From Flavobacterium potami (GTDB lineage: Bacteria > Bacteroidota > Bacteroidia > Flavobacteriales > Flavobacteriaceae), in assembly GCF_020026915.1 (NCBI RefSeq), contig NZ_JAINUY010000005.1, positions 310,001 to 374,000 of the forward strand: a DNA stretch of 64,000 nt, given 5' to 3'. Made by a program: the position numbers and the translations under genes. Every line of letters starts with the position of its first letter. Position 1 is the stretch's first letter. The notes under the pieces were generated by a model, which did not search any database, had not been told where the DNA came from, and saw nothing but the letters and a program-made list of their open reading frames with translations. Positions 10,992 to 64,000 of the stretch are shown one piece after another.

Positions 10992-11006
10992 AAAAAATTT
11001 AAAAGT

Positions 11007-11014: not shown

Positions 11015-11031
11015 CCAAAATTTTATAATTC

Positions 11032-12165: not shown

Positions 12166-12167
12166 TT

Positions 12168-12518
12168 ATGGAGAGAAAAAACGTTATTAAAGAAAAATCC
12201 TTTGCTTTTGCAATTGAAGTGGTTAATCTTTATAAAGTTTTAGCCGAGAAAAAAGAATTTGTTCTATCTAGACAAATGCTCCGTTCAGGAACATCAATTG
12301 GAGCAAATATTAGAGAAGCTGAACATGCTCAAAGCAAAGCTGATTTTATTCATAAATTATCGATTTCATTAAAAGAAGCAAATGAAACTGAATATTGGTT
12401 AGATTTGCTGCACCAAACGAAATATCTGTCTGAGATAGACTTTCAAAATATTAAACCAAAAATAACAGAGTTATTACGATTATTAACAAGCATCGTAAAA
12501 ACCTCAAAGAATATATAA
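12168..12518 (+). CDS. Four helix bundle protein (S23 / 23S rRNA intervening-sequence family)
   Basis: This 116-residue all-helical protein has the family signature MLRSGTSIGANIREAEHA (about residues 37-54), followed by helices rich in Leu and Lys (KLSISLKEANETEYWLDLL). The family was first described from intervening sequences in 23S rRNA genes and is common as stand-alone genes in Bacteroidetes; its biochemical role is unknown. It lies between mvaD and the mevalonate kinase gene and is bracketed by AT-rich repeats, which suggests a later insertion. I use the ATG at 12168; a TTG at 12156 lies in the repeat. Confidence 0.88.
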   Translation: MERKNVIKEKSFAFAIEVVNLYKVLAEKKEFVLSRQMLRSGTSIGANIREAEHAQSKADFIHKLSISLKEANETEYWLDLLHQTKYLSEIDFQNIKPKITELLRLLTSIVKTSKNI

Positions 12519-12548
12519 TTATCAATTGTTAATTATCCATTTTCAATT
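12519..12548. repeat. AT-rich repeat, right side of the four-helix-bundle gene
   Basis: ATCAATTGTTAATTATCC and TTTTCAATT echo the sequence at 12121-12165. It fills the 30-bp gap before the mevalonate kinase gene. Confidence 0.5.
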
Positions 12549-13487
12549 ATGAAAGGACCTCTATTTTACTCAAAAATATTACTCTTTGGAGAATACGGAA
12601 TTATCCGCGACTCTAAAGGACTTTCTATTCCTTATAATTTTTACAACGGTGCATTGAAGAAGTCTGAAGAACCTTCGGATGAAGCAATTGCATCAAACAA
12701 AAGTTTAAGAAGTTTTGCTTCTTATCTTGAAGTCCTTCATACACAGCAGCCGGATTTGGTTACTTTTGATTTAGAGACTTTAAAAAATGATGTCGAATCT
12801 GGAATGTATTTCGATTCTAGTATTCCGCAAGGATATGGTGTTGGAAGCAGCGGTGCGCTTGTTGCAGCTATTTATGACAAATATGCTATCAATAAAATCA
12901 CGGTTTTAGAAAATCTAACTCGTGAAAAACTACTTCACTTAAAAAATGTTTTTTCTCAAATGGAAAGCTTTTTCCACGGAAAAAGTTCAGGTTTAGATCC
13001 GTTAAACAGTTATTTAAGTATTCCGATTTTAATTAATTCTAAAGATAATATTGAAGCAACTGGAATTCCAACCCAAAGTTTTGACGGAAAAGGCGCTGTT
13101 TTCTTATTAGACTCTGGAATTGTTGGAGAAACGGCTCCGATGGTTAATATTTTCATGGAAAATCTAAAAGACAAAGGTTTCCGTGCGATGCTTAAAAATC
13201 AGTTTGTAAAATATACAGATGCTTGTGTGGACAACTTTTTGCATGGCGATATGAAATCTTTATTCACCAATACCAAAAAGCTTTCTAAAGTTGTTTTAAA
13301 TCATTTTAAACCAATGATTCCAGAACAATTTCACGGAATCTGGCAGCACGGAATCGACACCAACGATTATTACCTAAAACTTTGTGGTTCTGGCGGAGGT
13401 GGTTATATTCTTGGTTTTACAGAAGATTTGGAACGTGCAAAAACTGCCTTAAAAGATTACAAATTAGAAGTCGTTTATCAATTTTAA
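12549..13487 (+). CDS. GHMP kinase, probable mevalonate kinase
   Basis: This 312-residue protein opens with YSKILLFGEYGII (substrate-binding strand of GHMP kinases). It carries the ATP loop PQGYGVGSSGALVAAIY (about residues 94-110), the catalytic region GKSSGLDPLNSYLSIP and the C-terminal glycine motif KLCGSGGGGYILGF. With mvaD next door, phosphorylation of mevalonate in the cytoplasm is the likely role; phosphomevalonate kinase is the alternative. The four-helix-bundle gene interrupts the pair. Confidence 0.85.
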   Translation: MKGPLFYSKILLFGEYGIIRDSKGLSIPYNFYNGALKKSEEPSDEAIASNKSLRSFASYLEVLHTQQPDLVTFDLETLKNDVESGMYFDSSIPQGYGVGSSGALVAAIYDKYAINKITVLENLTREKLLHLKNVFSQMESFFHGKSSGLDPLNSYLSIPILINSKDNIEATGIPTQSFDGKGAVFLLDSGIVGETAPMVNIFMENLKDKGFRAMLKNQFVKYTDACVDNFLHGDMKSLFTNTKKLSKVVLNHFKPMIPEQFHGIWQHGIDTNDYYLKLCGSGGGGYILGFTEDLERAKTALKDYKLEVVYQF

Positions 13488-13553
13488 TTCCCTTACAAGC
13501 CGAAGTTATTTGAGTCGATTTTCATAAGTTTTCATCCTAAAAAGTTATTTATT

Positions 13554-14144
13554 ATGAAAAGTATTTTAAGAATAATCAAAGCAACTTTTTTAGGCGGAAT
13601 TTTATTTCTTGCTCCTTTGGTCGTCTTGCTTGTTATTCTTGAAAAAGGATATGGCATCATCAAAAAAATTACATTACCACTTGTCACTAATCTTCCAAGG
13701 GTACATGTTTTAGGAATTGCGCTTCAGGAACTCATTGGAATAACCATTATAATTCTAATTTGTTTTGTAGCGGGTTTATTAGCAAGAACTAAAAAAGCTA
13801 AAGAGCTCATTCAGAAATTAGAAGATGGTATTTTAAGTTTTGTTCCTGGTTATTCATTTATGAAGAGCATGAATGAAAATATTATGGGAATTGAATCTAA
13901 AGAAAATTTAAAAGTAATCTTGGTTCCTACCGACGCTGGCTGGCAATTTGCTTTTTTGATCGAACAAATCGACGAAAACAATTTTACTGTTTTTGTTCCA
14001 GATGCACCAAATCCGTGGAGTGGCTCTGTGGTTTTTGTAGAAAAAAAAGACATCAAAGAAGTAGACATGACTCAAAAACAAGCCTTGGCCTGCATTAGAA
14101 AATTAGGTTTTGGGTCTAAAGAATTGTTAAAAAACAAACTCTAA
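13554..14144 (+). CDS. DUF502 family membrane protein
   Basis: This 196-residue protein has two hydrophobic segments near the N-terminus (about residues 10-30, TFLGGILFLAPLVVLLVIL, and 58-80, LIGITIIILICFVAGLLA) and a soluble C-terminal domain with VFVPDAPNPWSGSVVFV, a motif typical of DUF502 proteins. The function is not established. It lies in the isoprenoid cluster on the same strand, 66 bp after the mevalonate kinase gene. Confidence 0.85.
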   Translation: MKSILRIIKATFLGGILFLAPLVVLLVILEKGYGIIKKITLPLVTNLPRVHVLGIALQELIGITIIILICFVAGLLARTKKAKELIQKLEDGILSFVPGYSFMKSMNENIMGIESKENLKVILVPTDAGWQFAFLIEQIDENNFTVFVPDAPNPWSGSVVFVEKKDIKEVDMTQKQALACIRKLGFGSKELLKNKL

Positions 14145-14204
14145 ATTTTTAAAATCAAAAATATCTTTTAACTTCCCTAATCTAATCTTTTACAAATTCT
14201 ATTT

Positions 14205-15161
14205 ATGTTAAGCAGACAGCACAAACTTTTGATAATGAAAATCGTTAGTCTGTTTTCTGTGGTTAGAGGTTACAACATTCCTATTATTGTTTTAGCCCAA
14301 TATTTATCGGCAATCTTTATTTTGGCTCCAGAAATTAGGGCGCTGGATATTTTGCTTGATTTTTATTTATTTCTGATTGTTTTTGCTTCGGCTGTTACAA
14401 TTGCTTCAGGTTACATCATCAACAATTTTTACGATAGTCAGAAAGATTTAATTAATAGACCCAACAAATCGATGTTGGATCGTTTGGTGAGCCAGAAAAC
14501 CAAATTGACCGTATATTTCAGTTTGAATTTTTTGGCGGTTTTAATGGCATCTATCGTTTCTTGGCGCGCATTTTTATTCTTTTCTGCTTATATTTTTCTG
14601 ATTTGGTTTTATTCGCATAAAATTAAAAAGTATCCTATTATTGGAAATCTAATGTCGGCTTTGCTTGCGGTAACTCCGTTTTTTGCCATTTTGCTGTACT
14701 TCTATAATAAGATTTCGTTTGAAGACATTGAAAATCACATGAGTCATTTTGTTGTCATTTCTGCACATGCAGTATTTCTTTTTTTACTTCTGCTGATTCG
14801 AGAAATGATAAAGGATTTAGAGAATCTGAAAGGAGATTTGGTAAACAACTACAGAACAATTCCGGTAATCTACGGAGAAAAAATTTCGAAACAGATTATT
14901 ACAGCTTTGACTATTTTGACGATTGTTCCTGTTTATGTTTTAGTGAACATACATGACGTGGGTTATATGGACATTTATTTTTATGCTTCTTTTGGAGTTT
15001 TACTTTTTTTCCTGATTTTTTTATGGAAATCTGACTCGAAAGGACAATTTTTAAGACTTCATAATCTTTTGAAGTTCCTGATTGTTTCTGGCGTTTTCTG
15101 CATTGTTTTGATAAATCCGAGCGTATTGTGGCATGGGCGTGAATTGATTTCTAATTACTAA
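14205..15161 (+). CDS. UbiA family prenyltransferase (geranylgeranylglycerol-phosphate synthase-like)
   Basis: This membrane protein of up to 318 residues has eight or nine hydrophobic helices and the two Asp-rich UbiA motifs: NNFYDSQKDLINRPNKS (about residues 83-99) and a second set around EMIKDLENLKGD (about 200-211). It transfers a polyprenyl chain to an acceptor. In flavobacteria this member is usually annotated as geranylgeranylglycerol-phosphate geranylgeranyltransferase-like; the acceptor cannot be read. An internal ATG at 14235 is an equally good start. Linkage to the mevalonate genes supports an isoprenoid role. Confidence 0.85.
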   Translation: MLSRQHKLLIMKIVSLFSVVRGYNIPIIVLAQYLSAIFILAPEIRALDILLDFYLFLIVFASAVTIASGYIINNFYDSQKDLINRPNKSMLDRLVSQKTKLTVYFSLNFLAVLMASIVSWRAFLFFSAYIFLIWFYSHKIKKYPIIGNLMSALLAVTPFFAILLYFYNKISFEDIENHMSHFVVISAHAVFLFLLLLIREMIKDLENLKGDLVNNYRTIPVIYGEKISKQIITALTILTIVPVYVLVNIHDVGYMDIYFYASFGVLLFFLIFLWKSDSKGQFLRLHNLLKFLIVSGVFCIVLINPSVLWHGRELISNY

Positions 15162-15456
15162 GTTTTTTTATTCCGCAGAGATACACGAAAAATTCACAGA
15201 GATTCGCAAAGTTTTTTTTGTCTACTTTATAAATATTTGCGAACAGCTAAATTGTTTAAAAGAAGCCAATTGTTTGAATCTAGCCCCGGTTGAAGTGGAA
15301 ATCTTTTTATTTTTTTCTTTAAAAAATAAAAAATTGGGAACGAAAAACGGGAAACCATGTTAAAAAAAATGCCTGTTGTGATGCTTCTTATTCATCTAAA
15401 AATCAAAGCTATCAATCTAAGAACAATGAACTTAAGTTTTATTAGCAGGAAAAAAC
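15162..15456. other. Intergenic region with a partial repeat arm
   Basis: The 320-bp gap before the pseudouridine synthase gene starts with one arm of the 'cgcagagatacacg / gattcgcaaag' repeat class (15172-15212). The rest shows no open frame with a credible product and no fold I recognise. The promoter of the next gene lies at its end. Confidence 0.5.
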
Positions 15457-15464
15457 TATCTTTG
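15457..15464 (+). promoter_or_regulatory. Putative -7 box of the pseudouridine synthase gene
   Basis: TATCTTTG fits TAnnTTTG and ends 17 bp before the ATG at 15482. No clear -33 TTG is seen. Confidence 0.5.
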
Positions 15465-15481
15465 CACAAATTAATGATTTT

Positions 15482-16390
15482 ATGAACAACAAGGAAGGCA
15501 ATAATAAAAGAGGCGGATCAAGACCAAACAGCTCAAGATCAAACTCTAGCAAGCCAAAACCACCAATGGCAAAACGTGCTCAAGGGCCGAAAAAAGAAAA
15601 GCCGGAGGTTAAAGCGGCGAAGGAAGCTGCTGAACAAAAACTTAAGAAACAAAACCAGGCTCCGAAAAGACAAAAAGCTTCAGATGAAATTCGTCTGAAC
15701 AAGTACATCTCTAATTCTGGTGTTTGTTCTCGTCGTGATGCCGACATTTATATTCAGTCTGGAAACGTAAAAGTTAACGGAACTGTGGTTACCGAAATGG
15801 GGTATTTGGTAAAAATTAATGATGTTGTAAACTTTGACGGTGTTACTTTGACTCCAGAAAAGAAAGAATATATCTTGTTGAATAAACCTAAAAACTTCAC
15901 GACTGCATTTGACGAAGGTCAGGAATTTCGTAACGTTCTAGAACTTGTTCGTGGCGCTACAAATGCAAAAATTGCTGCAGTTGGAAGAATGGACAAAAAT
16001 ACAACCGGTTTATTGTTGTTTACAAACGATACCGATATGATTCGTAAATTTACTTTACCGAATCAGAAATCATCTAAAATTTATCAGGTTTCTTTAGATA
16101 AAAACTTGAAATTTGAGGATTTGGAAAAAATCAGCAAAGGTTTGGTTCTTGACGGGCACCGCGTTTCTGTTGAAGAAGTAAGTTATATTGACAATGAACC
16201 AAAAAGCGAGGTAGGCTTAAGATTGCGTACAGCAAATGTAAAAGTGGTACGCGCTATTTTTGAATCTTTAGAATATAATGTACTACGTATTGACCGTGTT
16301 TCTTTTGCTGGATTAACCAAAAAGAATCTTCCAAGAGGAAACTGGCGCTTTTTGACTGATCAAGAGGTTATAAATTTGAAAAACATCTAA
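15482..16390 (+). CDS. Pseudouridine synthase, RsuA/RluB/RluF family
   Basis: This 302-residue protein has three parts. A low-complexity N-terminus (residues 1-65) is rich in Asn, Ser, Lys and Pro. An S4 RNA-binding domain follows (about 68-130, IRLNKYISNSGVCSRRDAD). The catalytic domain contains AAVGRMDKNTTGLLLFTND, with the active-site Asp in the GRMDKNTTGLL motif. The family isomerises uridine in 16S or 23S rRNA. The basic tail is a usual flavobacterial feature. It is followed by a terminator. Confidence 0.92.
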   Translation: MNNKEGNNKRGGSRPNSSRSNSSKPKPPMAKRAQGPKKEKPEVKAAKEAAEQKLKKQNQAPKRQKASDEIRLNKYISNSGVCSRRDADIYIQSGNVKVNGTVVTEMGYLVKINDVVNFDGVTLTPEKKEYILLNKPKNFTTAFDEGQEFRNVLELVRGATNAKIAAVGRMDKNTTGLLLFTNDTDMIRKFTLPNQKSSKIYQVSLDKNLKFEDLEKISKGLVLDGHRVSVEEVSYIDNEPKSEVGLRLRTANVKVVRAIFESLEYNVLRIDRVSFAGLTKKNLPRGNWRFLTDQEVINLKNI

Positions 16391-16415
16391 TTAGATTCCG
16401 AATTAAAATCATACT

Positions 16416-16450
16416 AAATCCTGTTTTCTCTGAAAATGGGATTTTTTTTT
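16416..16450 (+). terminator. Rho-independent terminator
   Basis: AAATCC pairs with GGATTT, with an inner TTTTC/GAAAA stem, followed by a run of ten T. It lies 26 bp after the pseudouridine synthase stop codon. Confidence 0.7.
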
Positions 16451-16453
16451 ATT

Positions 16454-17062
16454 TTAGAAACTAAAAAAGTTATGTCCGAAAAGTGTAAATATGGATCTTC
16501 CGATAGATTGGTTTTTATCTTCTACTGTTTCGTAACATGAAAAACCAAGGATAATTTTGATTCCGGGTGGAATACTATTTAAGATATCTCTTTTTTGATC
16601 TTCTAAAAGAAGTTTTAAACTTTCTAATAACTGAAGATTACATCTTAAATAAGAGATTACAAGAAGTGCCGAAAAGTTAAGTATTTCTCTGGCCGTTTCG
16701 CTTTTGATTCCGACTTCGTTGGAAACCATTTCTGAAATTCTACCTTTTTTGTTTGAAAATAATTCTTTCAATAAATCATTTCCTTCTAAGCGATAACAAT
16801 CATCTACTGATAAAATTCTACCTGCATTAAAGTCGATTTCCTGATAAAAAGTAGAATCTTCTTCGACCATTGAAACGATGTGAGAGTAAAAATCTGATTC
16901 TTCTGCTTTGTTATAGAGACCCATTAAAATTGTACCTATCGAAACGTCAATTCCTTTTATTAAAAGTGCATCGTTCTCAAAATAAAACTTGTTTAACTTG
17001 GAGACAACATTTGAAGAAATAAAGCGTCTAAGTTCAATCTGTAGGTTGGGGGTCATACTCAT
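16454..17062 (-). CDS. DUF937-like hypothetical protein
   Basis: This 202-residue protein is mostly helical with no signal peptide or membrane segment. Its centre and C-terminus (GRISEMVSNEVGIKSETARE, then LNFSALLVISYL and EDQKRDILNSIPPGIKI) resemble DUF937/YidB-type proteins, in which a helical domain is followed by 'lxxqkxxixxaiPxGl'. The assignment is from memory of the family and moderately sure. It faces its upstream neighbour convergently. Confidence 0.6.
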   Translation of the reverse strand: MSMTPNLQIELRRFISSNVVSKLNKFYFENDALLIKGIDVSIGTILMGLYNKAEESDFYSHIVSMVEEDSTFYQEIDFNAGRILSVDDCYRLEGNDLLKELFSNKKGRISEMVSNEVGIKSETAREILNFSALLVISYLRCNLQLLESLKLLLEDQKRDILNSIPPGIKIILGFSCYETVEDKNQSIGRSIFTLFGHNFFSF

Positions 17063-17321
17063 AACTTAAAAAAATGATTATTTATACTCGTTTAAAATAA
17101 TCGATAAAGTGAGGCTTTTTATCGTTTATCGAGATAAAAATATAAAATATTTTAACATTTCCAAAAATTAAGTTAAAAATTTAGTCTCTTAATAACCAAG
17201 AGTTAACAAAAAATATCTGTGAGTGCCTGTAAACACAACCCTTTCATTATCAAATTAAAATTTAAAAAAAATAAAATATTTTCGCCAGAGGCAATAATTT
17301 GAAGCAAAAGTTGTTACATAA
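17063..17321. other. AT-rich intergenic region
   Basis: This 259-bp gap has no supported gene. It is very AT-rich and contains short hairpin-forming stretches such as GATAAAGTGAGGCTTTTTATC near 17103. It holds the upstream region of the minus-strand DUF937-like gene. Confidence 0.4.
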
Positions 17322-17822
17322 TTAAAATAAAATGTTTCGATATTCCCATACGATATTTAAAAAAATACCCAAATAAGCAATTGAAAACAGAAATTTGATA
17401 AAACTAGAGGCAAGAAATCCTAGTACAGATCCGGTAGCTGCCTTTAAAGCTCTTTTATGATTTTTTGAATCGTATAATAGTTCCCCGAAAAGAGCTCCAA
17501 CAAATGGTCCGATTATCATACCAAACGGAAGAGGAGATAAAATTCCGATTATCAATCCGATGTTTGTTCCCCAAACACCATAAGAACTTCCGCCGAATTT
17601 TTTTGTTCCCTGGGACGGAATTACATAATCCAAAATGGTAATTATAACCATTACAACAAAAGTGATTCCCAAAACCCAGTAATTGTTTTCTACGGCTTTT
17701 GTCAGGTACAGTAACAGCAGACCAACCCAGCAACTTGATAATCCAGGCAAAACGGGAAGAAAACTGCCAAAAACACCAACAATCATGCAGATAAAGCCTA
17801 ATAAGAGCAATAATAAATCCAT
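17322..17822 (-). CDS. DUF456 domain-containing membrane protein
   Basis: This 166-residue protein has about four hydrophobic segments with glycine-rich loops. LGFICMIVGVFGSFLPVLPG at the N-terminus and FGMIIGPFVGALFGELLYD near residue 106 are typical of DUF456. No enzymatic residues were seen; the family has no known function. It is divergent from the small secreted protein at 17865, and the 42-bp gap between them must carry both promoters. Confidence 0.85.
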   Translation of the reverse strand: MDLLLLLLGFICMIVGVFGSFLPVLPGLSSCWVGLLLLYLTKAVENNYWVLGITFVVMVIITILDYVIPSQGTKKFGGSSYGVWGTNIGLIIGILSPLPFGMIIGPFVGALFGELLYDSKNHKRALKAATGSVLGFLASSFIKFLFSIAYLGIFLNIVWEYRNILF

Positions 17823-17864
17823 ATATTTTTTGTAATTTTAATTTCGAACTAAGTCAATTTGTAC

Positions 17865-18245
17865 ATGCATAATCTTCTTAAAATAATTCTATCTGTCTTA
17901 CTCTTTGGCCTATTTACTAACGCAAATGCTCAGGTCAAAAAGATTTCTATCGATGACCGAATACTTCAGGACAGTATATATAAAAGTAATAAGAAAAAAG
18001 TTTTAAATCTTTCAATGAAAGAATTCGATGCTCTTTTCTTCGATTTTTTCAGCAAGAAAAACAATCCTGACATTCTGCTAACCAAAATCGAATTTTACAA
18101 TTATACCGTTCAAATTGCAACATTTTCAGACAGACTTGCTCATTTGTATCCTGAACAAAAAGAAGTTGCAGCTCAAAACAAAGAAAATTGGTTATCGGAA
18201 AGCTATGAAGATTATCTAGAATCCAAAGCTTCTCAAAAAAAATAA
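17865..18245 (+). CDS. Small secreted protein of unknown function
   Basis: This 126-residue protein has a signal peptide (LLKIILSVLLFGLFTNANAQ) and then a polar, helical, lysine-rich region (SKKNNPDILLTKIEFYNYTV). No domain was recognised. I use the ATG at 17865; a TTG six bases earlier is possible. The next gene, 34 bp downstream, encodes a small lipoprotein and may be its partner. Confidence 0.65.
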   Translation: MHNLLKIILSVLLFGLFTNANAQVKKISIDDRILQDSIYKSNKKKVLNLSMKEFDALFFDFFSKKNNPDILLTKIEFYNYTVQIATFSDRLAHLYPEQKEVAAQNKENWLSESYEDYLESKASQKK

Positions 18246-18279
18246 TTGTATTTTTGTTTATTCATTCAACATTAAAATC

Positions 18280-18759
18280 TTGAGGCAATTTTTCCCTTTT
18301 TTCATTTGTATTCTTTTCAACTCTTGTCAATATTTTGAGAAGCAGGTTCCGTCTGAAAAAGAATTACTTCAAAAGGAATTAAAATCGATAAACTGGAAAG
18401 AGGTAGACGAATATCCTTCTTTGCCCAATTGCGAGAAAATTGCAGACAGAAAACTGCGTCAGCAATGCTTTTTTGAGGTAATGTCTACTTTGATTGAAGA
18501 AAAACTAAACATCGACACTTTGTCTATCATGTATCCCGAATTAGACACAATTGAAGTAAAAGTGACCGTATTTCCAAATGCTACAATGAAATTTGAACCT
18601 CAGTTTCCAAAAGATTCTGTGGCATATGATACGATAAAAATTGATAGTATTCTTCATGCCCGTTTAATTGATTTTCCTAAAGTAAATCCAGCTATAAAAC
18701 GCGGTATTCCAGTTAAAACACAGTTTATTTTACCTGTAATTATTAAAGCTAAAGAATAA
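18280..18759 (+). CDS. Small lipoprotein, TTG start, possible TonB-C-like tail
   Basis: This 159-residue protein opens with a hydrophobic stretch and a lipobox (ILFNSC, Cys16), so a lipoprotein is likely. The start is TTG at 18280, because the only in-frame ATGs are far inside the protein, beyond the lipobox. The C-terminal 70 residues (VKVTVFPNATMKFEPQFPKD, then GIPVKTQFILPVIIK) recall the beta strands of a TonB C-terminal domain, but this is weak. Function unknown. Confidence 0.65.
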   Translation: MRQFFPFFICILFNSCQYFEKQVPSEKELLQKELKSINWKEVDEYPSLPNCEKIADRKLRQQCFFEVMSTLIEEKLNIDTLSIMYPELDTIEVKVTVFPNATMKFEPQFPKDSVAYDTIKIDSILHARLIDFPKVNPAIKRGIPVKTQFILPVIIKAKE

Positions 18760-18765
18760 TTTTTC

Positions 18766-18851
18766 ACCATGTAAGTGATATAAGGTCATGTAACCTTACC
18801 GCAAAGCAACGGTGACGTGCAACTTAAATTTCTTATATGACTTAAATGGTT
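18766..18851. repeat. Palindromic repeat, 'accatataagttatataag' family, copy 2
   Basis: The left arm ACCATGTAAGTGATATAAGG and the right arm CTTATATGACTTAAATGGT match copy 1 at 10924-10991. The centre carries ACCTTACCGCAAAGCAACGG, related to the 'ccgcaaag' family, so this copy may be nested. Confidence 0.65.
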
Positions 18852-18855
18852 TAAT

Positions 18856-19959
18856 TTATTTTGTAAAACGTCTGTCTTTCCATTCATAAGACCCGAACAA
18901 ACTATATAAAGCCACCGCCGAACTAAAAAATGGATACAGCAAGCTACTTAGTAAAAGACTTTTAATTCTCTTTCCGGTCAAAAATTGATTGGTTATGGAG
19001 AGCAAAACAAAATCGATTGCAAACTTAGAAAAAGCAAAAATCACAAAAATTGGATACGGCCAAATTCTGAAAAGAAGCAGAAAAAATCCAATTACAAAAC
19101 TCAGATTTCCGAAGAAAACAATCAGTCCAAGAAATTTTCCAAAATTGCTTTTATACGAACTAGTTTTTGCCGCCCAACGCACTCTTTGATGAAACAATGC
19201 TTTCCAATTTTCTGTTGGTTTTGTAGTTACAATCGCGTCTCTGGCCTTTAAATAATGAACTTTGTCTGGAGATTTTCCAATTGCTTTTTGAAGTAAAAAA
19301 ACATCATCTCCGCTGGCAATTTTGTCGTTTCCTTCAAAACCATTTAAGCTCTCAAACAATGATTTTGTGTAAGCAAAATTAGCTCCGTTGCACATAAAAC
19401 CTTTATTCAAACCAAAACTTCCAATCGTTGCGCCTTGCAGACTCGTTAAGTCTAATTGTTGAAAATGATCTAAAAATGAATTCTCGCATTGGTACGTTAC
19501 AGCGCCTGCGAGCATTGATACTTTGTTTTCTTGAATATAATTATCAAAAGTTAATAGCCAATTTTCTGGAACAATGCAATCGGCATCTGTAGTAATAACC
19601 CAATCGGTTTTTACTTGTTGCATTGCCGTAGTAATCGCGTCTTTTTTGGGAGATTTAGAAATACGAATATTGTCGATTTGCGAAACTTGAAACTTGAAAC
19701 CTGAAACTTTAAACTTTTCTTCTGAACTATCATCAACCAGAATTACTTCAAATAATTCGTTTGGATAATTTAAAGTTGAAAAACTCTCTAAAAGTATCGG
19801 CAGATTTTCTTTTTCATTCCGAAATGGAACTATAATCGTAAAGCTAGTTTTGGGTTCTAAATCCTGTTTTTGATATTTTTTTATTCTGAAAAAACCATAA
19901 ATAAGCAGCGTAATACTAACCATGTAAATAGCTAATATGAAGAATAATCCAGAAATCAT
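18856..19959 (-). CDS. Glycosyltransferase family 2, membrane-associated
   Basis: This 367-residue protein has an N-terminal membrane helix and then a GT-A fold: FTIIVPFRNEKENLPILLES, VILVDDSSEE and the metal-binding TTDADCIVP (about residues 137-145). GDDVFLLQKA and QRVRWAAKTSSY (the QxxRW region) follow, with C-terminal membrane helices. It should transfer a sugar from an NDP-sugar to a lipid or polymer at the membrane. Its start overlaps the stop of the flippase-like gene by 4 bp. Residues about 80-93 (FKVSGFKFQVSQ) are encoded by the CTTGAAAC repeat. Confidence 0.88.
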   Translation of the reverse strand: MISGLFFILAIYMVSITLLIYGFFRIKKYQKQDLEPKTSFTIIVPFRNEKENLPILLESFSTLNYPNELFEVILVDDSSEEKFKVSGFKFQVSQIDNIRISKSPKKDAITTAMQQVKTDWVITTDADCIVPENWLLTFDNYIQENKVSMLAGAVTYQCENSFLDHFQQLDLTSLQGATIGSFGLNKGFMCNGANFAYTKSLFESLNGFEGNDKIASGDDVFLLQKAIGKSPDKVHYLKARDAIVTTKPTENWKALFHQRVRWAAKTSSYKSNFGKFLGLIVFFGNLSFVIGFFLLLFRIWPYPIFVIFAFSKFAIDFVLLSITNQFLTGKRIKSLLLSSLLYPFFSSAVALYSLFGSYEWKDRRFTK

Positions 19960-54446: not shown

Positions 54447-54458
54447 TACAAACTTAGG

Positions 54459-54532
54459 CGGTCTGGACGGGACTCGAACCCGCGACCCCATGCGTGACAG
54501 GCATGTATTCTAACCAACTGAACTACCAAACC
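54459..54532 (-). tRNA. tRNA-Asp (anticodon GTC), copy 1
   Basis: On the minus strand the acceptor stem is GGTTTGG / CCAGACC with discriminator G. The anticodon loop is CTGTCAC and the T-arm contains GGTTCGAGTCCC. No CCA is encoded. The gene is identical to copy 2. Confidence 0.95.
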
Positions 54533-55126: not shown

Positions 55127-55136
55127 CCCAATATTG

Positions 55137-55210
55137 CGGTCTGGACGGGACTCGAACCCGCGACCCCATGCGTGACAGGCATGTATTCTAACCAACTGAA
55201 CTACCAAACC
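55137..55210 (-). tRNA. tRNA-Asp (anticodon GTC), copy 2
   Basis: The same 74-nt sequence as copy 1, 680 bp away. Acceptor stem, GTC anticodon loop and T-arm are complete. No encoded CCA. Confidence 0.95.
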
Positions 55211-56223: not shown

Positions 56224-58796
56224 TCGGTTTCTTTTTTAATATTTTGTGCTTTATAAAGCAAATCTGTCGCCATGAATAACTTGCGCTTCAAGATCGGACT
56301 AAAATTAGGGTTTTCTTTTAAGAATCGCTGTAATTCATCAAAAGCATATTTCGACGAATACTTTCCAACCGTATTGTCCAACCAATCTTTCGGAAAGAAA
56401 ATATCTCCCGTGCGCTGGATCTCGTCTACCAAATCTAGTGAAAATCTAATGTATTTTTGCGCATTTTCCTGACGAAGCGGATGATTTACATTGGCTAATC
56501 CAACCGAAACCCAAGATTCTTTCTCGCGATTCGAATCATCTTTCAAAGACTCTATAAAAGCATTTCGAACTGATTCCTCTTTTGATAAGGACGGAAGCAA
56601 AAACTCAAATCGTTTTTGTTTGTCTGGATTTGATATGGAAGTTCTTGTTTTCTCCAAAATATCATCGGCTTTCGGGTGTTTGAAAATCGCCAGATTCATT
56701 GCCATATTGGTGTAATCGTCTTCGTTTAATTTCAAGCCTGTAATCGAGATTTCTCTATTCCAAACCTTATACAAACTCGCTTTTCCAGAATCTGAATACG
56801 CCACTGAACTAAATAAACCAAATAAAGTCTTTTTAATATTAGAAGATAAATTAGCTTGCAAACGCTCGTACAAAATACCCACAAGCTGTTTTTGAACTTT
56901 ATTCTGCTGTTTTTCAGTGAAGAATCTCCAGTAAATCGTATTTAGATTATTAGAAACAATTCGCAAAACCAATTCGTTTTCTTCTGATTGAATTCCCTTT
57001 AAAAAACAATCAAAGGCTTGATTTGGAGCAACATTTCCAATCAAAGTGTTTTCATAAAGGTTACTGTATGCAGAAGCTCTTGCGACCTCATCTTTCAAGC
57101 TTTCAATAGTATTTAAATTATTCCCGTCAAGCGGAAAAACACCATATCCAAAACCATTATAATTGTAAATAATAGCGAGTGGTTTTTCAAGTCCGATAGC
57201 CTCTTTTAAAATTAAATTTTTATCTGTAATATTTGCCGTCAGTACTTTTATATCATTAGTATAAATAAAACCAACTTGAAAAATCTGAGGCCAAACATTA
57301 TCTGATTTATCTTCCGCTTTTTGAAAAATCTCAAACTTTTTGATTTTGTTTTGAGCGTCGTATTCAATATCATCTGAAAAAATCGCTCTACCCGATTTGT
57401 TTACCCAAACCTCACTCCATTTCTTCATATCTAAAGAAGTTTCGGCATCTAGCAATTCTACCAAATTATTCCAATCGGCATTATCATTAGCATATTTCTG
57501 AATGTATTTTTGGATTCCTTTCTGGAAAGGTTCTTTTCCCATTGAAGCTTCTAACTGACGCATCATAATGGGTGCTTTGTTGTAAATCATAGCACCATAA
57601 AGCGAACCGGCATCTTTCAAATTTGCCAAATGCTGTCTTATCGGATGTGTTCCTAAAGATCGATCTTCCGCGTAAGCGCTAGGATAATGTGCCGTAAAAA
57701 ACTGTAAATTATGATTGACTTTCGGGAAAATCGGATTCATGATTTTGTCTGCCATAAAATTGGCAAAAACCTCTTTCATCCAAACATCGTCAAACCATTT
57801 CATCGTAACCAAATCGCCAAACCACATGTGTGAAGTTTCGTGCGCAATTAATTTTGCTCGGTTTAATTTTTCGCTATCCGTTGCGCTGTTGTCCAAAAAC
57901 AAAGTGGATTCTCTATATTGAATCGCGCCAACATGTTCCATTCCGCCATATTGAAAAACGGGAATCGAAGCGAAATCCAACTTCTGAAAAGGAAATTTAT
58001 AATTGGTATATTTTTCTAAAAAATCTAAAGATTGCTGATGCAAATTGAAAATCGTATCGACACTTGCTTTTATTTTATCAGCACTATTTTCACGATACAG
58101 CATCGTCATCTCCATATTTCCCGGCTTTTGTTTTACGCTGTTGAATTTTCCCGCTACAAACGAAAACAAATACGTACTCATTTTGTCTGATTCTCCAAAA
58201 GTGTACGCTGTAAAATTCCCTTTTTCAACTTTCTCTTTCACATCGGCTCCAGCCAAAACCTTCCAATCTTTTGGCACTGAAAGGCTTAATTTGTAAGTCG
58301 CTTTTATATCGGGTTGATCGAAACAAGGAAACAAAGTACTTGCACGATCTGGAACCAACAAAGTGTATAAAAAATCGTCGTTTCTGTTCAAAGACAAATT
58401 TCCTGCAATGAAAGAAATGGAAATGGTGTTTTTTCCTGAAATCAAACTTCCAACAGGAATTATGATATGTCCTTTTTCATGAACAATAGTAATCTTTTTT
58501 CCGTTTGCCGAAACTTCTTTTATGTTTTGAGATTTCTCTTTAAAATCTAAATATAACGGCTGACTCAAATCAGAAAGAGCCAAATTTAAAACTAAGTGAG
58601 AATTAATATCTTCAATTTTCTGATTTGGAATATCAAAATTCAAGACGTATTGAACATTAGCAATCTGATGCTTTCTAAACTGAGACAATTGCTCTGAAAC
58701 ACCATTTTCTAAAACAAGATTTTGTTTTGTTTTTGATTGCGAAAGTCCAATGGTAATTACCAAAAAGAAAGCAAGAAAGGAGTAGAAAATTTTCAT
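56220..58796 (-). CDS. M1 family aminopeptidase
   Basis: This 858-residue protein has a signal peptide (FYSFLAFFLVITIGLSQ). The M1 motifs are present: GGMEHVGAI at 284-292 (the family's GxMEN with Asn replaced by His) and the zinc site HETSH (319-323) with the third ligand in MKEVFANFMAD (Glu342). It should cleave N-terminal residues from peptides in the periplasm or outside the cell. It lies upstream of the DUF58 gene with a 4-bp overlap. Confidence 0.92.
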   Translation of the reverse strand: MKIFYSFLAFFLVITIGLSQSKTKQNLVLENGVSEQLSQFRKHQIANVQYVLNFDIPNQKIEDINSHLVLNLALSDLSQPLYLDFKEKSQNIKEVSANGKKITIVHEKGHIIIPVGSLISGKNTISISFIAGNLSLNRNDDFLYTLLVPDRASTLFPCFDQPDIKATYKLSLSVPKDWKVLAGADVKEKVEKGNFTAYTFGESDKMSTYLFSFVAGKFNSVKQKPGNMEMTMLYRENSADKIKASVDTIFNLHQQSLDFLEKYTNYKFPFQKLDFASIPVFQYGGMEHVGAIQYRESTLFLDNSATDSEKLNRAKLIAHETSHMWFGDLVTMKWFDDVWMKEVFANFMADKIMNPIFPKVNHNLQFFTAHYPSAYAEDRSLGTHPIRQHLANLKDAGSLYGAMIYNKAPIMMRQLEASMGKEPFQKGIQKYIQKYANDNADWNNLVELLDAETSLDMKKWSEVWVNKSGRAIFSDDIEYDAQNKIKKFEIFQKAEDKSDNVWPQIFQVGFIYTNDIKVLTANITDKNLILKEAIGLEKPLAIIYNYNGFGYGVFPLDGNNLNTIESLKDEVARASAYSNLYENTLIGNVAPNQAFDCFLKGIQSEENELVLRIVSNNLNTIYWRFFTEKQQNKVQKQLVGILYERLQANLSSNIKKTLFGLFSSVAYSDSGKASLYKVWNREISITGLKLNEDDYTNMAMNLAIFKHPKADDILEKTRTSISNPDKQKRFEFLLPSLSKEESVRNAFIESLKDDSNREKESWVSVGLANVNHPLRQENAQKYIRFSLDLVDEIQRTGDIFFPKDWLDNTVGKYSSKYAFDELQRFLKENPNFSPILKRKLFMATDLLYKAQNIKKETE

Positions 58797-58812
58797 TTTT
58801 AAGGAATATAAG

Positions 58813-58831
58813 ATTTGCTAAAATAGCAAAT
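58813..58831. promoter_or_regulatory. Perfect palindrome ATTTGCTA-AAA-TAGCAAAT
   Basis: Two 8-bp arms with a 3-bp centre lie 17 bp from the M1 peptidase start and 27 bp from the first zinc-locus palindrome. It could be an operator or a leftover of a repeat. The half-site orientation is opposite to that of the two palindromes at 58858. Confidence 0.5.
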
Positions 58832-58857
58832 ACGCTGATTTTTTACAAACAATTACC

Positions 58858-58909
58858 GCAACAACGTTGCATTTAAAAATAAGATTTCTATATTTGCAAC
58901 ACTATTGCA
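58858..58909 (+). promoter_or_regulatory. Promoter with two palindromic operator candidates (GCAA-N5-TTGC)
   Basis: The promoter is TTG (58867-58869) and TATATTTG (58889-58896), 19 bp apart. Two palindromes overlap it: GCAACAACGTTGC (58858-58870), covering the -33 box, and TGCAACACTATTGCA (58895-58909), touching the end of the -7 box. Both have the form GCAA-N5-TTGC and their centres are 38 bp apart. A Zur-type repressor is a sensible guess because of the genes downstream, but the site consensus was not checked. Confidence 0.65.
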
Positions 58910-58920
58910 TTAATTCTCGA

Positions 58921-59274
58921 ATGAAAAAGAAACTTAGAATTATAAATCTACTAATGCCACTGATCGTATTGTTCGCAATACTTTTTCCGGTTGTGCATTC
59001 GTATGAGCATATTCTAGATACGCATTCGCAGAAAGAAAAACTAGAATTTTCGGTTTCAGAAAAACCACAATTCAAAACCAAACTGCATTCGTTTCATAAA
59101 TGTTCGATTTGCGATTTTAAGTTTAGCGCAGTTGGCACATTAGAGTTTACTGCTTTTCAATTTTATAAAAATAGTGCAGTTGTAAAACATCTTAATTTTT
59201 ACAACGAACAGCATTTTGCATTTTTTAAAGGGTCTTTATTCTCACTTCGAGCCCCTCCTGTTTTTACACTTTAA
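58921..59274 (+). CDS. Small exported protein with CxxC and His, first gene of the zinc locus
   Basis: This 117-residue protein has a hydrophobic N-terminus (about residues 6-25, IINLLMPLIVLFAILFPVVH). The segment KLHSFHKCSICDFKFSA (about 55-71) has two His and a CxxC pair, a likely metal site. The C-terminus ends RAPPVFTL. No family name is given. It lies directly downstream of the paired palindromes and upstream of the metal-uptake genes; possibly a metal-sensing or delivery protein, which is inference. Confidence 0.65.
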   Translation: MKKKLRIINLLMPLIVLFAILFPVVHSYEHILDTHSQKEKLEFSVSEKPQFKTKLHSFHKCSICDFKFSAVGTLEFTAFQFYKNSAVVKHLNFYNEQHFAFFKGSLFSLRAPPVFTL

Positions 59275-59692
59275 TTTTTTGTGCGCTGATTGCTTGACAA
59301 TTGGGGTATTGATTCGTTTTTGATAGTTTTAAATCCTAAACATTTCATTGTAATCTCATTCATTTTCAGGAGTTAATGCGTTGTATTGACGATACATTTT
59401 TGCATTGAAATTTAAAATTTCTTTGTCGAAATATTGCTTTTACTGCACAAAAAATCCCTTTTCAAATTTTATCGATTACGGCATTTAAACTAAGACTTAA
59501 TTGAGGTTTTTAGTTTGTGATGTGCTGTTTTTAATCAGTCAGAAGATGGTTTCACCCCGCTGGGGCTCTTTTCTGAACGGTAAATCTATATCTATAAATA
59601 TCTTGTCCCTCTGGGACTTGAATATTGGAATCATAACACCTTTTTGTAACCCAAATACTCTTTATAAAATGATCAAAATCAAATCAGAAAAA
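59275..59692. other. Intergenic region with short palindromes
   Basis: In this 418-bp gap, CCCCGCTGGGG (59555-59565) and GTCCCTCTGGGAC (59605-59617) are GC-rich mini palindromes of the common Bacteroidetes 'ccccgctgggg' kind. A reading frame from 59501 would translate through them but does not look like protein. Otherwise AT-rich. Confidence 0.5.
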
Positions 59693-60613
59693 ATGAAAAC
59701 AACAAAACTCATTTTGGCTTCGGTTTTTGCTGCAATTGCTTTTACAGGTTGTAGCAACGACGATTCCGAACAAACACAAGCCATTCCTGCGATTGACAAA
59801 ATCGAATTGGGGCTTGGAAACAACGAAACCGCCACTATTGGCGAAGATTTCCATTTCAATGCGGAAGTTACTGCTGCAGACAAAATCAAAAATGTACAAG
59901 TGAAAATTGTACAAAAAAGCACGGAAACCTATTCAAAAGCCTGGTCTCACGAAATTACTTGGACGCAATATGCAGATGCCAAAAACGCAACGGTTCACAA
60001 ACATTTTGACATTCCAGAAGATGCTGTTGAAGGTAAATATGATTTCATCATTATCATCAACGATCAAAACGGAAGCAAACTGGAAGTAACGAAAACCATC
60101 ACGATTTACAAACTAGAAAATATTCCTGTAAATCCTGTGGCTTCTGTGTTTACCCTTTTTATAAATGATTCTTTTATGTATCGAAAAGGCAAATTTTCTG
60201 ATGCCAATGCGAAGTACAAAAACAACGACATTTTCAGTTCGCAAGTAACACTTGAAGGCATAAAAGGCGACGGAATTATGTATTTGCTTTTAATCAATAA
60301 AAACGCCAAACACAATCCAGAAAGCGTTGATCAAATTGATTTCAAAAAAGTAATCGTTTATGACGTCATCGAACATAAAAATGTAGCCGATGCAAGTCAG
60401 TTTTCTAATGTTCCATGGGATGGCGTAAAGTTTACAAGAGAAAAACCAAACCTGATAATTGGCGCTGCTAAAGACAACAATGCTCCTGTTCAACAAGATT
60501 TAATAGCTAATAAATCTTGGACAACCGGCGATTATACTTTCTTGGTTTTGTATAAAAACACGACTTACAATATCAATTTTTCTCAATCAATTGATCTTCC
60601 ATTTGCACTTTAA
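59693..60613 (+). CDS. DUF4625-like lipoprotein
   Basis: This 306-residue lipoprotein (lipobox IAFTGCS) has an Asp-rich stretch and then an immunoglobulin-like beta domain (about residues 35-140, HFNAEVTAADKIKNVQVKIV and EGKYDFIIIINDQNG), followed by a longer beta region. It resembles the DUF4625 family seen next to TonB-dependent receptors. The start is the ATG at 59693, where the signal peptide begins. It may bind the ligand outside the outer membrane or in the periplasm. Confidence 0.75.
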   Translation: MKTTKLILASVFAAIAFTGCSNDDSEQTQAIPAIDKIELGLGNNETATIGEDFHFNAEVTAADKIKNVQVKIVQKSTETYSKAWSHEITWTQYADAKNATVHKHFDIPEDAVEGKYDFIIIINDQNGSKLEVTKTITIYKLENIPVNPVASVFTLFINDSFMYRKGKFSDANAKYKNNDIFSSQVTLEGIKGDGIMYLLLINKNAKHNPESVDQIDFKKVIVYDVIEHKNVADASQFSNVPWDGVKFTREKPNLIIGAAKDNNAPVQQDLIANKSWTTGDYTFLVLYKNTTYNINFSQSIDLPFAL

Positions 60614-60628
60614 TTCCAATCAAAAAAA

Positions 60629-61099
60629 ATGAAAAAGATATCCTTTTTATTAGGCGTTTTTGCTTTGGCTTTTATTTCTTCTTGTTCTAGCGATAATGCA
60701 GAAATCGATACTGAATATCCTGTAATTGATATAACTGGATCAGATGCTTTTCCAATTCAATGCAGTACAATTGAACGTGGAAAAACCTTCACTTTCAAAG
60801 CTACTTTTAATGATAATGTCGAATTGGGTTCTTATAGTTTGGACATTCATCACAATTTCGATCATCATACACATAGCACGGAAGTCACAACTTGTGAAAC
60901 CGAAGCGGTGAAAAAACCTGTAAATCCAATGCTTTTCATCAACAATTACACTATTCCAAATGGCGTGAAAACTTATGAAGCAACAGCGCAAATTACCATT
61001 CCTGCTGATGTTGATCCTGGCGATTATCATTTTATGATCAGACTAACGGACAAAGAAGGCTGGCAAACGCTGAAAGGTTTAAGTATTAAAATTTTATAA
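60629..61099 (+). CDS. DUF4625 domain-containing lipoprotein, His-rich
   Basis: This 156-residue lipoprotein (lipobox FISSCSS, Cys19) has one DUF4625-type beta domain with LDIHHNFDHHTHSTEV (about residues 70-85). The cluster of five His is a likely metal-binding site. Two Cys (in QCSTIE and TTCETE) may bind metal or form a disulfide. It starts 15 bp after the previous gene and ends 10 bp before the receptor gene, so they are one operon. Confidence 0.82.
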   Translation: MKKISFLLGVFALAFISSCSSDNAEIDTEYPVIDITGSDAFPIQCSTIERGKTFTFKATFNDNVELGSYSLDIHHNFDHHTHSTEVTTCETEAVKKPVNPMLFINNYTIPNGVKTYEATAQITIPADVDPGDYHFMIRLTDKEGWQTLKGLSIKIL

Positions 61100-61109
61100 T
61101 CAGAATTTA

Positions 61110-63317
61110 ATGAAGAATGCCCAATTCCTTTATTGGAAACATTGTTTTTTACTCGCTTGTTTATTGATTTCATCTGAAGTTGTTTCTCAAAATAAGCCTT
61201 CAGAAAAAAAGCCTGAAATTAAAGAACTCAACGAAGTTATTGTCAACGGAAATGCAGCTGAAAAACGCAAAAAAGAAGAATCACTAAATGTTGAAACTGC
61301 AAACAGCAGTTTTATTCAGCGTAATCTTGGCGGGAGTTTGATGCAGTCTTTAAAGAAATTGCCTGGCGTTAAAACCATTTCCATTGGTTCTGGAGGTTCA
61401 AAACCGCTGATTCGAGGTTTGAGTTTTAATCAGGTAATTGTGGTTGAAAACGGTTTGAAACACGAAGGCCAGCAATGGGGCGCCGATCACGGTCTGGAAA
61501 TCGATCAATATGCCGTAAACCGAGTAGAAATCATAAAAGGACCTTCTTCATTTATTTACGGATCTGATGCTGTAGGTGGTGCGGTAAATATTAAACCGCT
61601 TCCTCTTCCTTCCAGAAATTCTTTTGGCGGAAGTGTTGACCTTACAGGAAAAAGCAATAATGCGCTATTTGGAAGTTCTGTCAATTTATATGGGAGAAAT
61701 GAAAACTGGTTTTTCGATTCTCGAGTAACGACAATGGATTACGGCGATTATCGTGTTCCGACCGATGTGGTTCAAGTCTATAGTTATACGGTTCCGTTGT
61801 ATAAAAATCATTTGCGAAATACAGCTGGACGCGAACTCGATTTTCATTTCAGCACGGGTTATTCTGGAGAAAAATTAAAGTCGGTTTTTTATTTCAGTAA
61901 TGTTCACACCAAAAGCGGCTTTTTTGCGAATGCGCACGGACTCGAACCTAGAAATGTCGATATCGAATTGCATGATAAATCGAGCCGAGATATTTTGATG
62001 CCGTATCAGCAAGTCAATCATTTAAAAGTGAGCAATACGACTTCTTTTCAACTAGGAAATCATTCTTTTGAAACGCAGATTGGTTTTCAGAAAAACTTTA
62101 GGAGAGAATGGAGCCATTACGTCAATCACGGTTATATGCCTCCAATTTATCCAGATAATATGTATGCGCCAAAAGATTTGGAACGCCAATACGATAAAGA
62201 TGTTTGGTCGTTTTCGGCTAAAGATGAATTTACTGTTAATCGCCATCAAATTACAATTGGAACTAATGTCGTGGCACAAGAAAATGCCATTGGCGGATGG
62301 AGTTTTTTGATTCCAGCTTTCACACAATTGAATGCAGGTTTGTTTGCTTATGACAAAGTTGAACTTAATGAAAAATGGTTTCTTCACGGTGCCGTTCGTT
62401 ACGATTATGGTACAATCAAAATGAAATCGTATTACGACTGGTTTGAAAGTCCAGTTTCAGAAAACAATCAGACGCAATTGGAATATTTACAGCGTTCTGA
62501 CGATTTGACCAAAACATTCAACAGTTTTACTTGGTCGGCTGGGGTAAATTATAATCCTGGAAATTTGACTTTGAAAGCCAATTTAGGTTCAAGTTTTAGA
62601 ATGCCAATTGCTAAAGAATTGGCTTCAAACGGTGTCAATTATCATTATTTCAGATTCGAAAAAGGAAATCCAAATCTCGATGCAGAACGTTCGTATCAAT
62701 TGGATTTGGGAATGGAATGGCAACAGCAAAACTGGTCTTTTCAGCTGACACCATTTGTGAATTATTTTCCGAATTTCATTTATTTAAATCCAACTTCAGC
62801 GCATGATATTTATTATGGAGCCGGAAATCAAGTTTTTCAATATGAGCAGAGTAAAGTATTCCGTTATGGTGCAGAATTCCAGACACGTTATTATTTCCTA
62901 AAATCTTTAAGTGCAGAAATCGCGGCAGAATATCTTTATTCCGAACAAAAATCGGGAAGCAAAAAGGGTTATACACTTCCGTTTTCGCCACCTCCTTCTG
63001 TTTTGTTCGGATTGAATTACGAGCCTCAAACAGGCTTTTTAAAAGATTCTTATTTCTCTTTCGATTATCGCCTTACAGCCGCACAAAACCATATTGTTCC
63101 GCCTGAGAAAAAAACAGCCGAAAGTCATGTTTTTAACGTGGCTTTGGGAACCAAAATAAAAACGGGAAAAGAGACTATCAGCGTCAATGTTCAAATCCAA
63201 AACTTATTCAATACAAGATATTTAAATCACACAAGCTTTTACCGACTTATCGAACTTCCTGAAGCGGGAAGAAACATTATTGTTTCTATGAAAATTCCGT
63301 TTTCGTTTTCGCGATAA
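61110..63317 (+). CDS. TonB-dependent receptor, putative zinc receptor (ZnuD-like)
   Basis: This 735-residue protein has a signal peptide (ACLLISSEVVSQ), a plug domain (about residues 50-165, GGSLMQSLKKLPGVKTISIG, SGGSKPLIRGLSFNQVIVVE, IIKGPSSFIYGSDAVGGAVN) and a barrel ending in NIIVSMKIPFSFSR. There is no carboxypeptidase-like N-terminal domain. The small size, with the His-rich lipoprotein upstream and the His/Asp-rich lipoprotein downstream, suggests a metal such as zinc as substrate. It imports across the outer membrane with energy from TonB. Confidence 0.85.
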   Translation: MKNAQFLYWKHCFLLACLLISSEVVSQNKPSEKKPEIKELNEVIVNGNAAEKRKKEESLNVETANSSFIQRNLGGSLMQSLKKLPGVKTISIGSGGSKPLIRGLSFNQVIVVENGLKHEGQQWGADHGLEIDQYAVNRVEIIKGPSSFIYGSDAVGGAVNIKPLPLPSRNSFGGSVDLTGKSNNALFGSSVNLYGRNENWFFDSRVTTMDYGDYRVPTDVVQVYSYTVPLYKNHLRNTAGRELDFHFSTGYSGEKLKSVFYFSNVHTKSGFFANAHGLEPRNVDIELHDKSSRDILMPYQQVNHLKVSNTTSFQLGNHSFETQIGFQKNFRREWSHYVNHGYMPPIYPDNMYAPKDLERQYDKDVWSFSAKDEFTVNRHQITIGTNVVAQENAIGGWSFLIPAFTQLNAGLFAYDKVELNEKWFLHGAVRYDYGTIKMKSYYDWFESPVSENNQTQLEYLQRSDDLTKTFNSFTWSAGVNYNPGNLTLKANLGSSFRMPIAKELASNGVNYHYFRFEKGNPNLDAERSYQLDLGMEWQQQNWSFQLTPFVNYFPNFIYLNPTSAHDIYYGAGNQVFQYEQSKVFRYGAEFQTRYYFLKSLSAEIAAEYLYSEQKSGSKKGYTLPFSPPPSVLFGLNYEPQTGFLKDSYFSFDYRLTAAQNHIVPPEKKTAESHVFNVALGTKIKTGKETISVNVQIQNLFNTRYLNHTSFYRLIELPEAGRNIIVSMKIPFSFSR

Positions 63318-63367
63318 GCATACCATTCAAAACTCAATTATTTACAAATTTTAAACCCTTTATTACA

Positions 63368-64000
63368 ATGAAAAACAAGTTTTACAAACTCCTATTTTTA
63401 TCTGTTTTATCGCTTTTTGCGGTTTCGTGCAGCAACGACGATGACAATCACGATGACCACGATCACGATCATGAATCTGAAGAACATACATTCGTTAGAG
63501 TTTTACTTTCTGACGAAAAAACAGCTGAGTTAACGCTTTTTGATCCGCATGAAGATAAAATCAGTTCTTTTACTGCCAAGTTTGCTAAATCGTCTTTGTA
63601 CACCACAGAATCTGGGCGTTATGCCGGAATTGTTCACAGAGACAATAATTTCGTAGAAACTTTCGACAGCGGACTAGAATTACACGGAGACCACATCGAT
63701 GTTGATGATGTTGCCAAATTTGGAGTTTTAGCGACAAGCGCATTAAAACCAACGCATTTTAAAAGTAAAATTGGAGAAATTCTAACTTTTAATGACGGAG
63801 ACGGAACACTTTCTGTTGGTAAAGAAGCAGATGTTCAAAAAGCTGGCGCAACGTTCAAAACAATCAACGCAGCTTTATTGGCGCATCATGGTGCAATGGC
63901 TACTTTTACAAACGGAACTTACGCCATTACCGAAAAAGACAATTCGGTTACCGGAACGCTTCCTGAGAAAGTAAAAATCATTGACAATACAGGAAAAACA
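63368..64000 (+). CDS. His/Asp-rich lipoprotein, AztD-like zinc chaperone, 3' partial
   Basis: The frame is open from 63368 to the window end: 211 codons. The protein has a lipoprotein signal (SLFAVSCSN) and then a metal-binding stretch DDDDNHDDHDHDHDHESEEH with alternating His and Asp (about residues 23-42). The rest (VLLSDEKTAELTLFDP, TTESGRYAGIVHRDNNFVET, GDHIDVDDVAKFG, ILTFNDGDGTLSV) is a beta-propeller type sequence resembling AztD, a periplasmic zinc chaperone. It should bind zinc and pass it on. The end of the gene lies outside the window. Confidence 0.78.
   Translation, partial: MKNKFYKLLFLSVLSLFAVSCSNDDDNHDDHDHDHESEEHTFVRVLLSDEKTAELTLFDPHEDKISSFTAKFAKSSLYTTESGRYAGIVHRDNNFVETFDSGLELHGDHIDVDDVAKFGVLATSALKPTHFKSKIGEILTFNDGDGTLSVGKEADVQKAGATFKTINAALLAHHGAMATFTNGTYAITEKDNSVTGTLPEKVKIIDNTGKT

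Follow-up and report, generated by a model that had tools for sequence, protein, structure and literature searches.

A candidate Zur-type double operator in the promoter of a putative zinc-scavenging operon of Flavobacterium potami

Described zinc-responsive systems and the present locus

Repression by Zur is already known, most of the work on its control coming from Proteobacteria, Firmicutes, Actinobacteria and Cyanobacteria. The review PMC6103462 describes promoters with a pair of Zur boxes, one at -35 and one at -10: that of znuA in S. coelicolor and that of yciC in B. subtilis. According to PMC5007448 the 7-1-7 repeat is the minimal Fur-type site, and B. subtilis Zur controls both a folate enzyme and a COG0523 gene; for COG0523 genes, a position downstream of a Zur site is the classical one (PMC2770081). 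Caulobacter crescentus Zur represses the TonB-dependent receptors znuK, znuL and znuM and the ABC-2 system znuGHI, an ATPase with two permeases, from operators that overlap the -10 region (PMC4176598). Fur-family and CobW genes occur near AztD genes (PMC6689063), and R. anatipestifer ZntR is a MerR-type protein (PMC11960050). No report of a Zur box from Flavobacteria or Bacteroidota, or of the TGCAACA-N-TGTTGCA operator and regulon described here for Flavobacteriaceae, was found in searches of an open-access library; words in Bacteroid- or Flavobacter- are absent from two Zur reviews (one of them PMC6103462).

The locus considered here lies in a window of 64,000 nucleotides of the F. potami genome (contig NZ_JAINUY010000005.1, positions 310,001 to 374,000), where two palindromes in one promoter very probably form the double operator of a Zur-type repressor controlling a zinc-scavenging operon. 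As in the B. subtilis and S. coelicolor promoters, there are two boxes, one for each core element, but the DNA sequence and the promoter type are different, and the spacing here is tied to the -33/-7 geometry of Bacteroidota. A paralogous operon on contig C37, with an ABC ATPase, a TonB receptor and two ABC-2/DUF3526 permeases, resembles C. crescentus znuGHI/znuK by description only, and the operator is of the TGCAAC type here and of the GTTAT type there. The window operon also has an AztD-like protein, with Fur-family and CobW genes nearby in relatives, as described for AztD/AztABCD (PMC6689063). It aligns with positions 6-353 of the 356 of the AztD model (NCBIfam NF038015) but at 83.7 bits is below the cut-off of 400; unlike AztABCD, the F. 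potami genome encodes no binding protein of the ZnuA/AztC family (PF01297), which is present in 11 of 14 control genomes. The TonB-dependent receptor, like Neisseria ZnuD, is similar to the ZnuD model (NCBIfam NF038289, E 4.6e-35), but its 121 bits are far under the cut-off of 950 and other receptor models score higher.

The operator and its candidate regulator would define a zinc-starvation regulon for Flavobacteriaceae that is concrete and can be searched for. They would also connect metal supply with uncharacterised families (DUF4625, g1, the MerC-domain proteins, and ABC-2/DUF3526 with a TonB receptor), and would put natural, putatively zinc-controlled promoters on offer for Bacteroidota genetics.

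The promoter, its paired sites and the genes behind them

The promoter contains two copies of a 15-bp inverted repeat, their starts 38 bp apart (Table 1). Read in the window, GCAACAACGTTGC at 58858-58870 and TGCAACACTATTGCA in the second copy confirm both the palindrome pair of the initial annotation and its overlap with the promoter boxes, operator 1 containing GTTG and operator 2 sharing its first two bases with the end of the -7 box. GTTG-N19-TATATTTG fits the Bacteroidota -33/-7 promoter consensus, and by this consensus the pair overlaps the core promoter, as expected of a Zur operator at uptake genes. The format GCAA-N5-TTGC, under which the palindromes had been described, is present in both repeats but understates the unit. 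In full it is the 7-1-7 inverted repeat TGCAACA-N-TGTTGCA (consensus of 30 regulator loci, 29 of them with sites, and of 15 diverse promoters), which has the format of a Fur-family operator.

Table 1. Features of the window promoter and operon, the candidate regulator and the paralogous operon (window positions unless a contig or locus is named)
Feature	Coordinates	Strand	Remarks
Operator 1, CGCAACAACGTTGCA	58857..58871	none	7-1-7 inverted repeat over the -33 box; same position conserved
Operator 2, TGCAACACTATTGCA	58895..58909	none	covers the last two -7 box bases and the presumed transcription start
-33 box, GTTG	58866..58869	+	within operator 1
-7 box, TATATTTG	58889..58896	+	19 bp from the -33 box
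g1, 117 aa	58921..59274	+	N-terminal hydrophobic segment, His residues, CxxC (HKCSIC)
DUF4625 lipoprotein, 306 aa	59693..60613	+	86.3 bits, cut-off 27
DUF4625 lipoprotein, 156 aa	60629..61099	+	His-rich stretch; 146.3 bits
TonB-dependent receptor, 735 aa	61110..63317	+	ZnuD model 121.4 bits; hemin-receptor model 138 bits
AztD-like His/Asp-rich lipoprotein, 406 aa	63368..64000	+	extends past the window to C70:374588; 83.7 bits, E 1e-23
Candidate regulator, 130 aa	C59:176245-176634		Fur-family
Paralogous operon (locus L286, G000:C37:806000-819500)	6676-13096 of L286	-	g1 paralogue, ABC ATPase, TonB receptor, two ABC-2/DUF3526 permeases under one operator

This layout suggests steric repression. 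With zinc plentiful, a Zur-type dimer would cover the -33 box and a second one the -7 box together with the start site, and RNA polymerase, finding both occupied, could not bind; when zinc falls the repressor would leave the promoter and the operon would be expressed. Its products (g1, the two DUF4625 lipoproteins, the TonB-dependent receptor and the AztD-like metallochaperone) would then carry zinc through the outer membrane. Two further targets of repression by this regulator would be its own divergent promoter and the paralogous operon on C37, where a single site with the same promoter placement, TATATTTGCAACACTGTTGCG, precedes the g1 paralogue; in a genome without ZnuA that operon could be an inner-membrane route for zinc.

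The gene calls agree with the CxxC/His protein, His-rich lipoprotein, ZnuD-like receptor and His/Asp-rich chaperone described earlier, and add a second DUF4625 protein absent from that list. In a Pfam profile search g1 matched no family above its cut-off. From the -7 box to beyond the AztD-like gene the + strand contains no further TANNTTTG, and a search of 58780-63400 gave no terminator-like site on that strand; both results are compatible with one transcript, but because of the 418-bp gap downstream of g1, a single transcript across the cluster is not assured. Further upstream in the window, two tRNA-Asp genes (gtc) lie on the - strand at 54457-54532 and 55136-55210, about 0.6 kb apart.

Distribution and conservation of the sites

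GCAA-N5-TTGC alone was rejected as a means of finding the regulon, being too common: it occurs at 103 places in the F. potami genome against 67 for the reversed pattern, only a mild enrichment, and three times in the window against 1.87 expected, which is no commoner than chance (at least three in 25 of 100 shuffles). The 15-mer with up to three mismatches occurs twice as often as its control (298 vs. 147), and with up to one mismatch five times against none; the pair pattern GCAAN5TTGC-N22..26-GCAAN5TTGC is found once, at the window promoter. Among the 27 places within two mismatches of the 15-mer, four lie in three promoter regions: the window pair, the single site C37:819091 and C59:176206. 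The genome scan proposed in the initial annotation came out in its favour: promoter-placed copies precede the paralogous operon and also a Fur-family gene. The remaining places are two between genes (C26:706184 and C48:497444), 20 inside ORFs, and one, C59:157710 (TGCAACATTGTTACA), which coincides in part with the stop codon of a penicillin-binding-protein-like gene and was set aside as probably not regulatory; its letters recur in three related genomes (G006, G042 and G088).

Perfect matches to TANNTTTGCAACNNNNTTGC number two in this genome, at the window promoter and at the C37 paralogue. With up to two mismatches the promoter-coupled TANNTTTGCAACNNNNTTGC scan is near background (43/47 vs. 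30/40), and only the two perfect matches and two of the eight with one mismatch were used; weaker members of the regulon may have been overlooked. The exact 15-mer, found in eight of the 101 Flavobacterium genomes (control 0), was not accepted as a sole marker of the regulon, since at least two of its places are inside ORFs (L177, L178); at L176, in a genome that lacks a close regulator, it stands before a gene whose product is His-rich.

The pair pattern is present in 30 of the 101 genomes of the genus and its reversed control in none (0/101), while a stricter pair pattern is found in 15 of 199 genomes of a family-wide draw, again with a control of 0. The receptor is at least 70% identical at 30 of the 43 named loci that have a relative of it, and the promoter is reached in 29 of these. 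The exact pair at 38 bp is kept at 25 of these 29 complete loci; L107 has the pair with one mismatch and L118 a degenerate pair, while L103 and L105 retain operator 1 alone. The alignment of upstream regions that had been suggested as a check likewise favours the reading within the genus, since close orthologues keep the pair. Against a wider claim, it is absent from all 13 more distant receptor loci (0/13; Pedobacter, Sphingobacterium, Paenimyroides and relatives, Paludibacter and others), and among ten receptor loci of the genus at 33-57% identity (L162-L171) only one has even a single site before its first gene (g1). Two genomes, G064 and G065, have pairs of the same layout at related loci with no metal genes recognizable by eye; these were treated as apparently due to chance rather than regulatory, and kept in the counts.

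Outside the genus (L240, L242, L243, L251 and L255) the pair tends to GCAACT-N-AGTTGC rather than GCAACA-N-TGTTGC. The regulator homologues at the same loci have KTTVYR vs. RVTIYR, differing before YR, a possible change of specificity.

The candidate regulator, the metal and the competing readings

The F. potami genome has three FUR-family genes. One, on C37, is Fur-like, a second is next to an efflux cluster on C48, and the third, on C59, encodes a 130-aa protein that is the most likely binder of the pair. It has the fold and sequence of the Fur family, with 27.4 bits against PF01475 (FUR; cut-off 23.1), and H56, C70, H82, H84, C87, C90, C95, C122 and C125 are invariant in an alignment of 27 sequences. 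The NCBIfam models are less decisive, with PerR at 37.1, Fur at 33.2 and Zur at 27.6 bits, all far below their cut-offs; that of the Zur equivalog, NF008646, a model of the E. coli type, is 167. In a PDB profile search a Bacillus Fur came first, followed in rows 2-5 by S. coelicolor Zur (two entries), E. coli Zur and M. tuberculosis FurB/Zur. Its predicted structure (pLDDT 84.3, pTM 0.72) gave three Zur structures as the top rows of VIA-align (3mwm, Z 13.1; 4mtd, 12.9; 7vo0, 12.6), close to a tie with the best Fur row at Z 12.0, and in Foldseek a cyanobacterial Zur first and a Fur second. Residue C70 falls, in alignments with the Zur proteins of E. coli and S. coelicolor (4mtd and 3mwm), on a Cys that is a zinc ligand there. 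C95 replaces an acidic residue in the alignment with 4ets, but not in that with 4mtd, and the sensor site of the C59 protein may thus differ from known ones.

A counterpart of the regulator with at least 50% identity occurs in 29 of the 101 genomes of the genus. Upstream of the C59-type gene a site pair (each site within three mismatches, 36-40 bp apart) is found in 29 of 30 loci; L076, with a regulator 61% identical, has no site upstream. The pair is present in 26 of these 29 genomes vs. 4 of the 72 others (Fisher 9e-17, uncorrected for relatedness and with regulator-bearing genomes tending to be larger). The four others are G016, where a 42% identical regulator is adjacent, G085, with a COG0523 gene, and G064 and G065, mentioned above. 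Single sites with up to one mismatch number 101 against 4 in the control in the 29 regulator genomes, and there is an excess, 50 against 9, also in the 72 genomes without a regulator at that identity. The regulator gene is present in every one of the 15 genomes whose receptor is at least 74% identical, and outside the genus a regulator homologue lies within the 3-kb stretch at 12 of 15 pair loci.

In F. potami itself the C59 site lies between the regulator gene and a MerC-domain gene, with a weaker second site 36 bp away at the -7 box on the MerC side; the divergent genes are of the MerC-domain, thioredoxin-reductase-like, TonB-receptor and thioredoxin-like types (L038, G000:C59:160000-179000, at 9964-19001). 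In G051 and G025 the pair stands between the regulator and a divergent counterpart of the window operon, with g1 37-44%, a TonB receptor 23-24% and an AztD-like protein 68-71% identical, together with a lipoprotein; in G005, which is arranged alike, the pair is weaker and its sites are 40 bp apart.

As for the metal, CobW_C (COG0523) genes number eight in the 101 genomes of the genus, and seven of these, or their operons, are downstream of the pair: five (G004, G052, G079, G083 and G097) in an operon divergent from the regulator, one (G085) directly after the pair, and one (G025) after the AztD-like gene of a pair-led operon. The eighth, in G056, has no pair. That of G083 encodes a protein scoring 553 bits with the model of the zinc GTPase ZigA (cut-off 600), and FolE is adjacent. 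There is no CobW_C gene in the F. potami genome, and the COG0523 evidence comes from its relatives. The genes preceded by sites across the genomes include those for AztD-like and COG0523 proteins, FolE and the TonB receptor, and it is from these companions, and from the ABC-2/TonB operon like Caulobacter znuGHI, that we infer zinc to be the metal sensed. The Zur-like repressor of the initial annotation is, at the level of sequence, well supported by the close-relative conservation, the regulator loci and the COG0523 genes; we infer likewise binding by the C59 protein, its repressing effect and a single transcript for the operon.

Several observations could be read in another way. Downstream of the C59 gene are genes, named by eye, for a 622-aa NRAMP-like transporter and a DtxR-like regulator, G051 has a second site pair between its NRAMP-like gene and an oxidoreductase gene, and the best NCBIfam match of the C59 protein, far below cut-off as it is, is a manganese-dependent PerR model. 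It is nevertheless unlikely that the C59 protein reads the double operator but senses manganese or some other metal in the manner of Mur or Nur, given that the pair-governed genes across genomes are of zinc type (COG0523/ZigA-like GTPases, FolE and AztD-like proteins), that the promoter strand of the second G051 pair faces the oxidoreductase and not the NRAMP-like gene, and that C70 matches the Cys of the E. coli and S. coelicolor Zur proteins. We consider it very unlikely that the sites are read instead by the small Fur-family protein of C48 (C48:277153-277530) or by a regulator of another family. The C48 protein does have the same CxxC/CxxC frame with an extra Cys, and a score with the E. 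coli-type Zur model a little above that of C59 (33.1 bits vs. 27.6), but its gene, which adjoins a CzcC/CzcB-like efflux cluster, has no site within two mismatches in its region, while the pair physically tracks the C59 gene in nearly every locus.

Least probable, and highly so, is that the palindromes are a by-product of the promoter (GTTGC around -33 and TTTGCAA after -7), with no regulator involved. Half of each repeat does overlap a promoter element, and in close relatives the whole promoter is highly conserved, the spacer (0.97) as much as the sites (0.91 and 0.95). Against this, 15 diverse promoters, picked for having both sites, keep the outer half-sites that lie outside the promoter boxes, with 1.3 bits in the site columns vs. 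0.8-0.9 in the flanks and 1.06 in the first spacer bases; the pair moreover occurs at a few classes of genes and not at promoters generally.

Beyond the Zur-type double operator itself, it is conceivable, though we advance it tentatively and with some doubt, that Flavobacteriaceae have a distinct branch of Zur. Its sensor would be richer in Cys, with the invariant C95 at the position of the Fur acidic ligand; its double operator, TGCAACA-N-TGTTGCA, would be built into the promoter, both the -33 and the -7 elements lying in operator half-sites; and its regulon would replace ZnuABC, the importer absent here, with TonB receptors, AztD-like proteins, DUF4625 lipoproteins, g1 and the ABC-2/DUF3526 system.

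Among 20 other Fur-family loci, at 27-41% identity, six have a site with up to three mismatches close upstream (L212, L214, L216, L217, L218 and L221) and the other 14 have none. A different repeat, TGCAATAGNATTGCA, is seen in three loci of the genus, L220 (2353), L223 (2396) and L226 (2422), at the end of a second Fur-family gene and before the next gene, and is possibly an operator of that paralogue.
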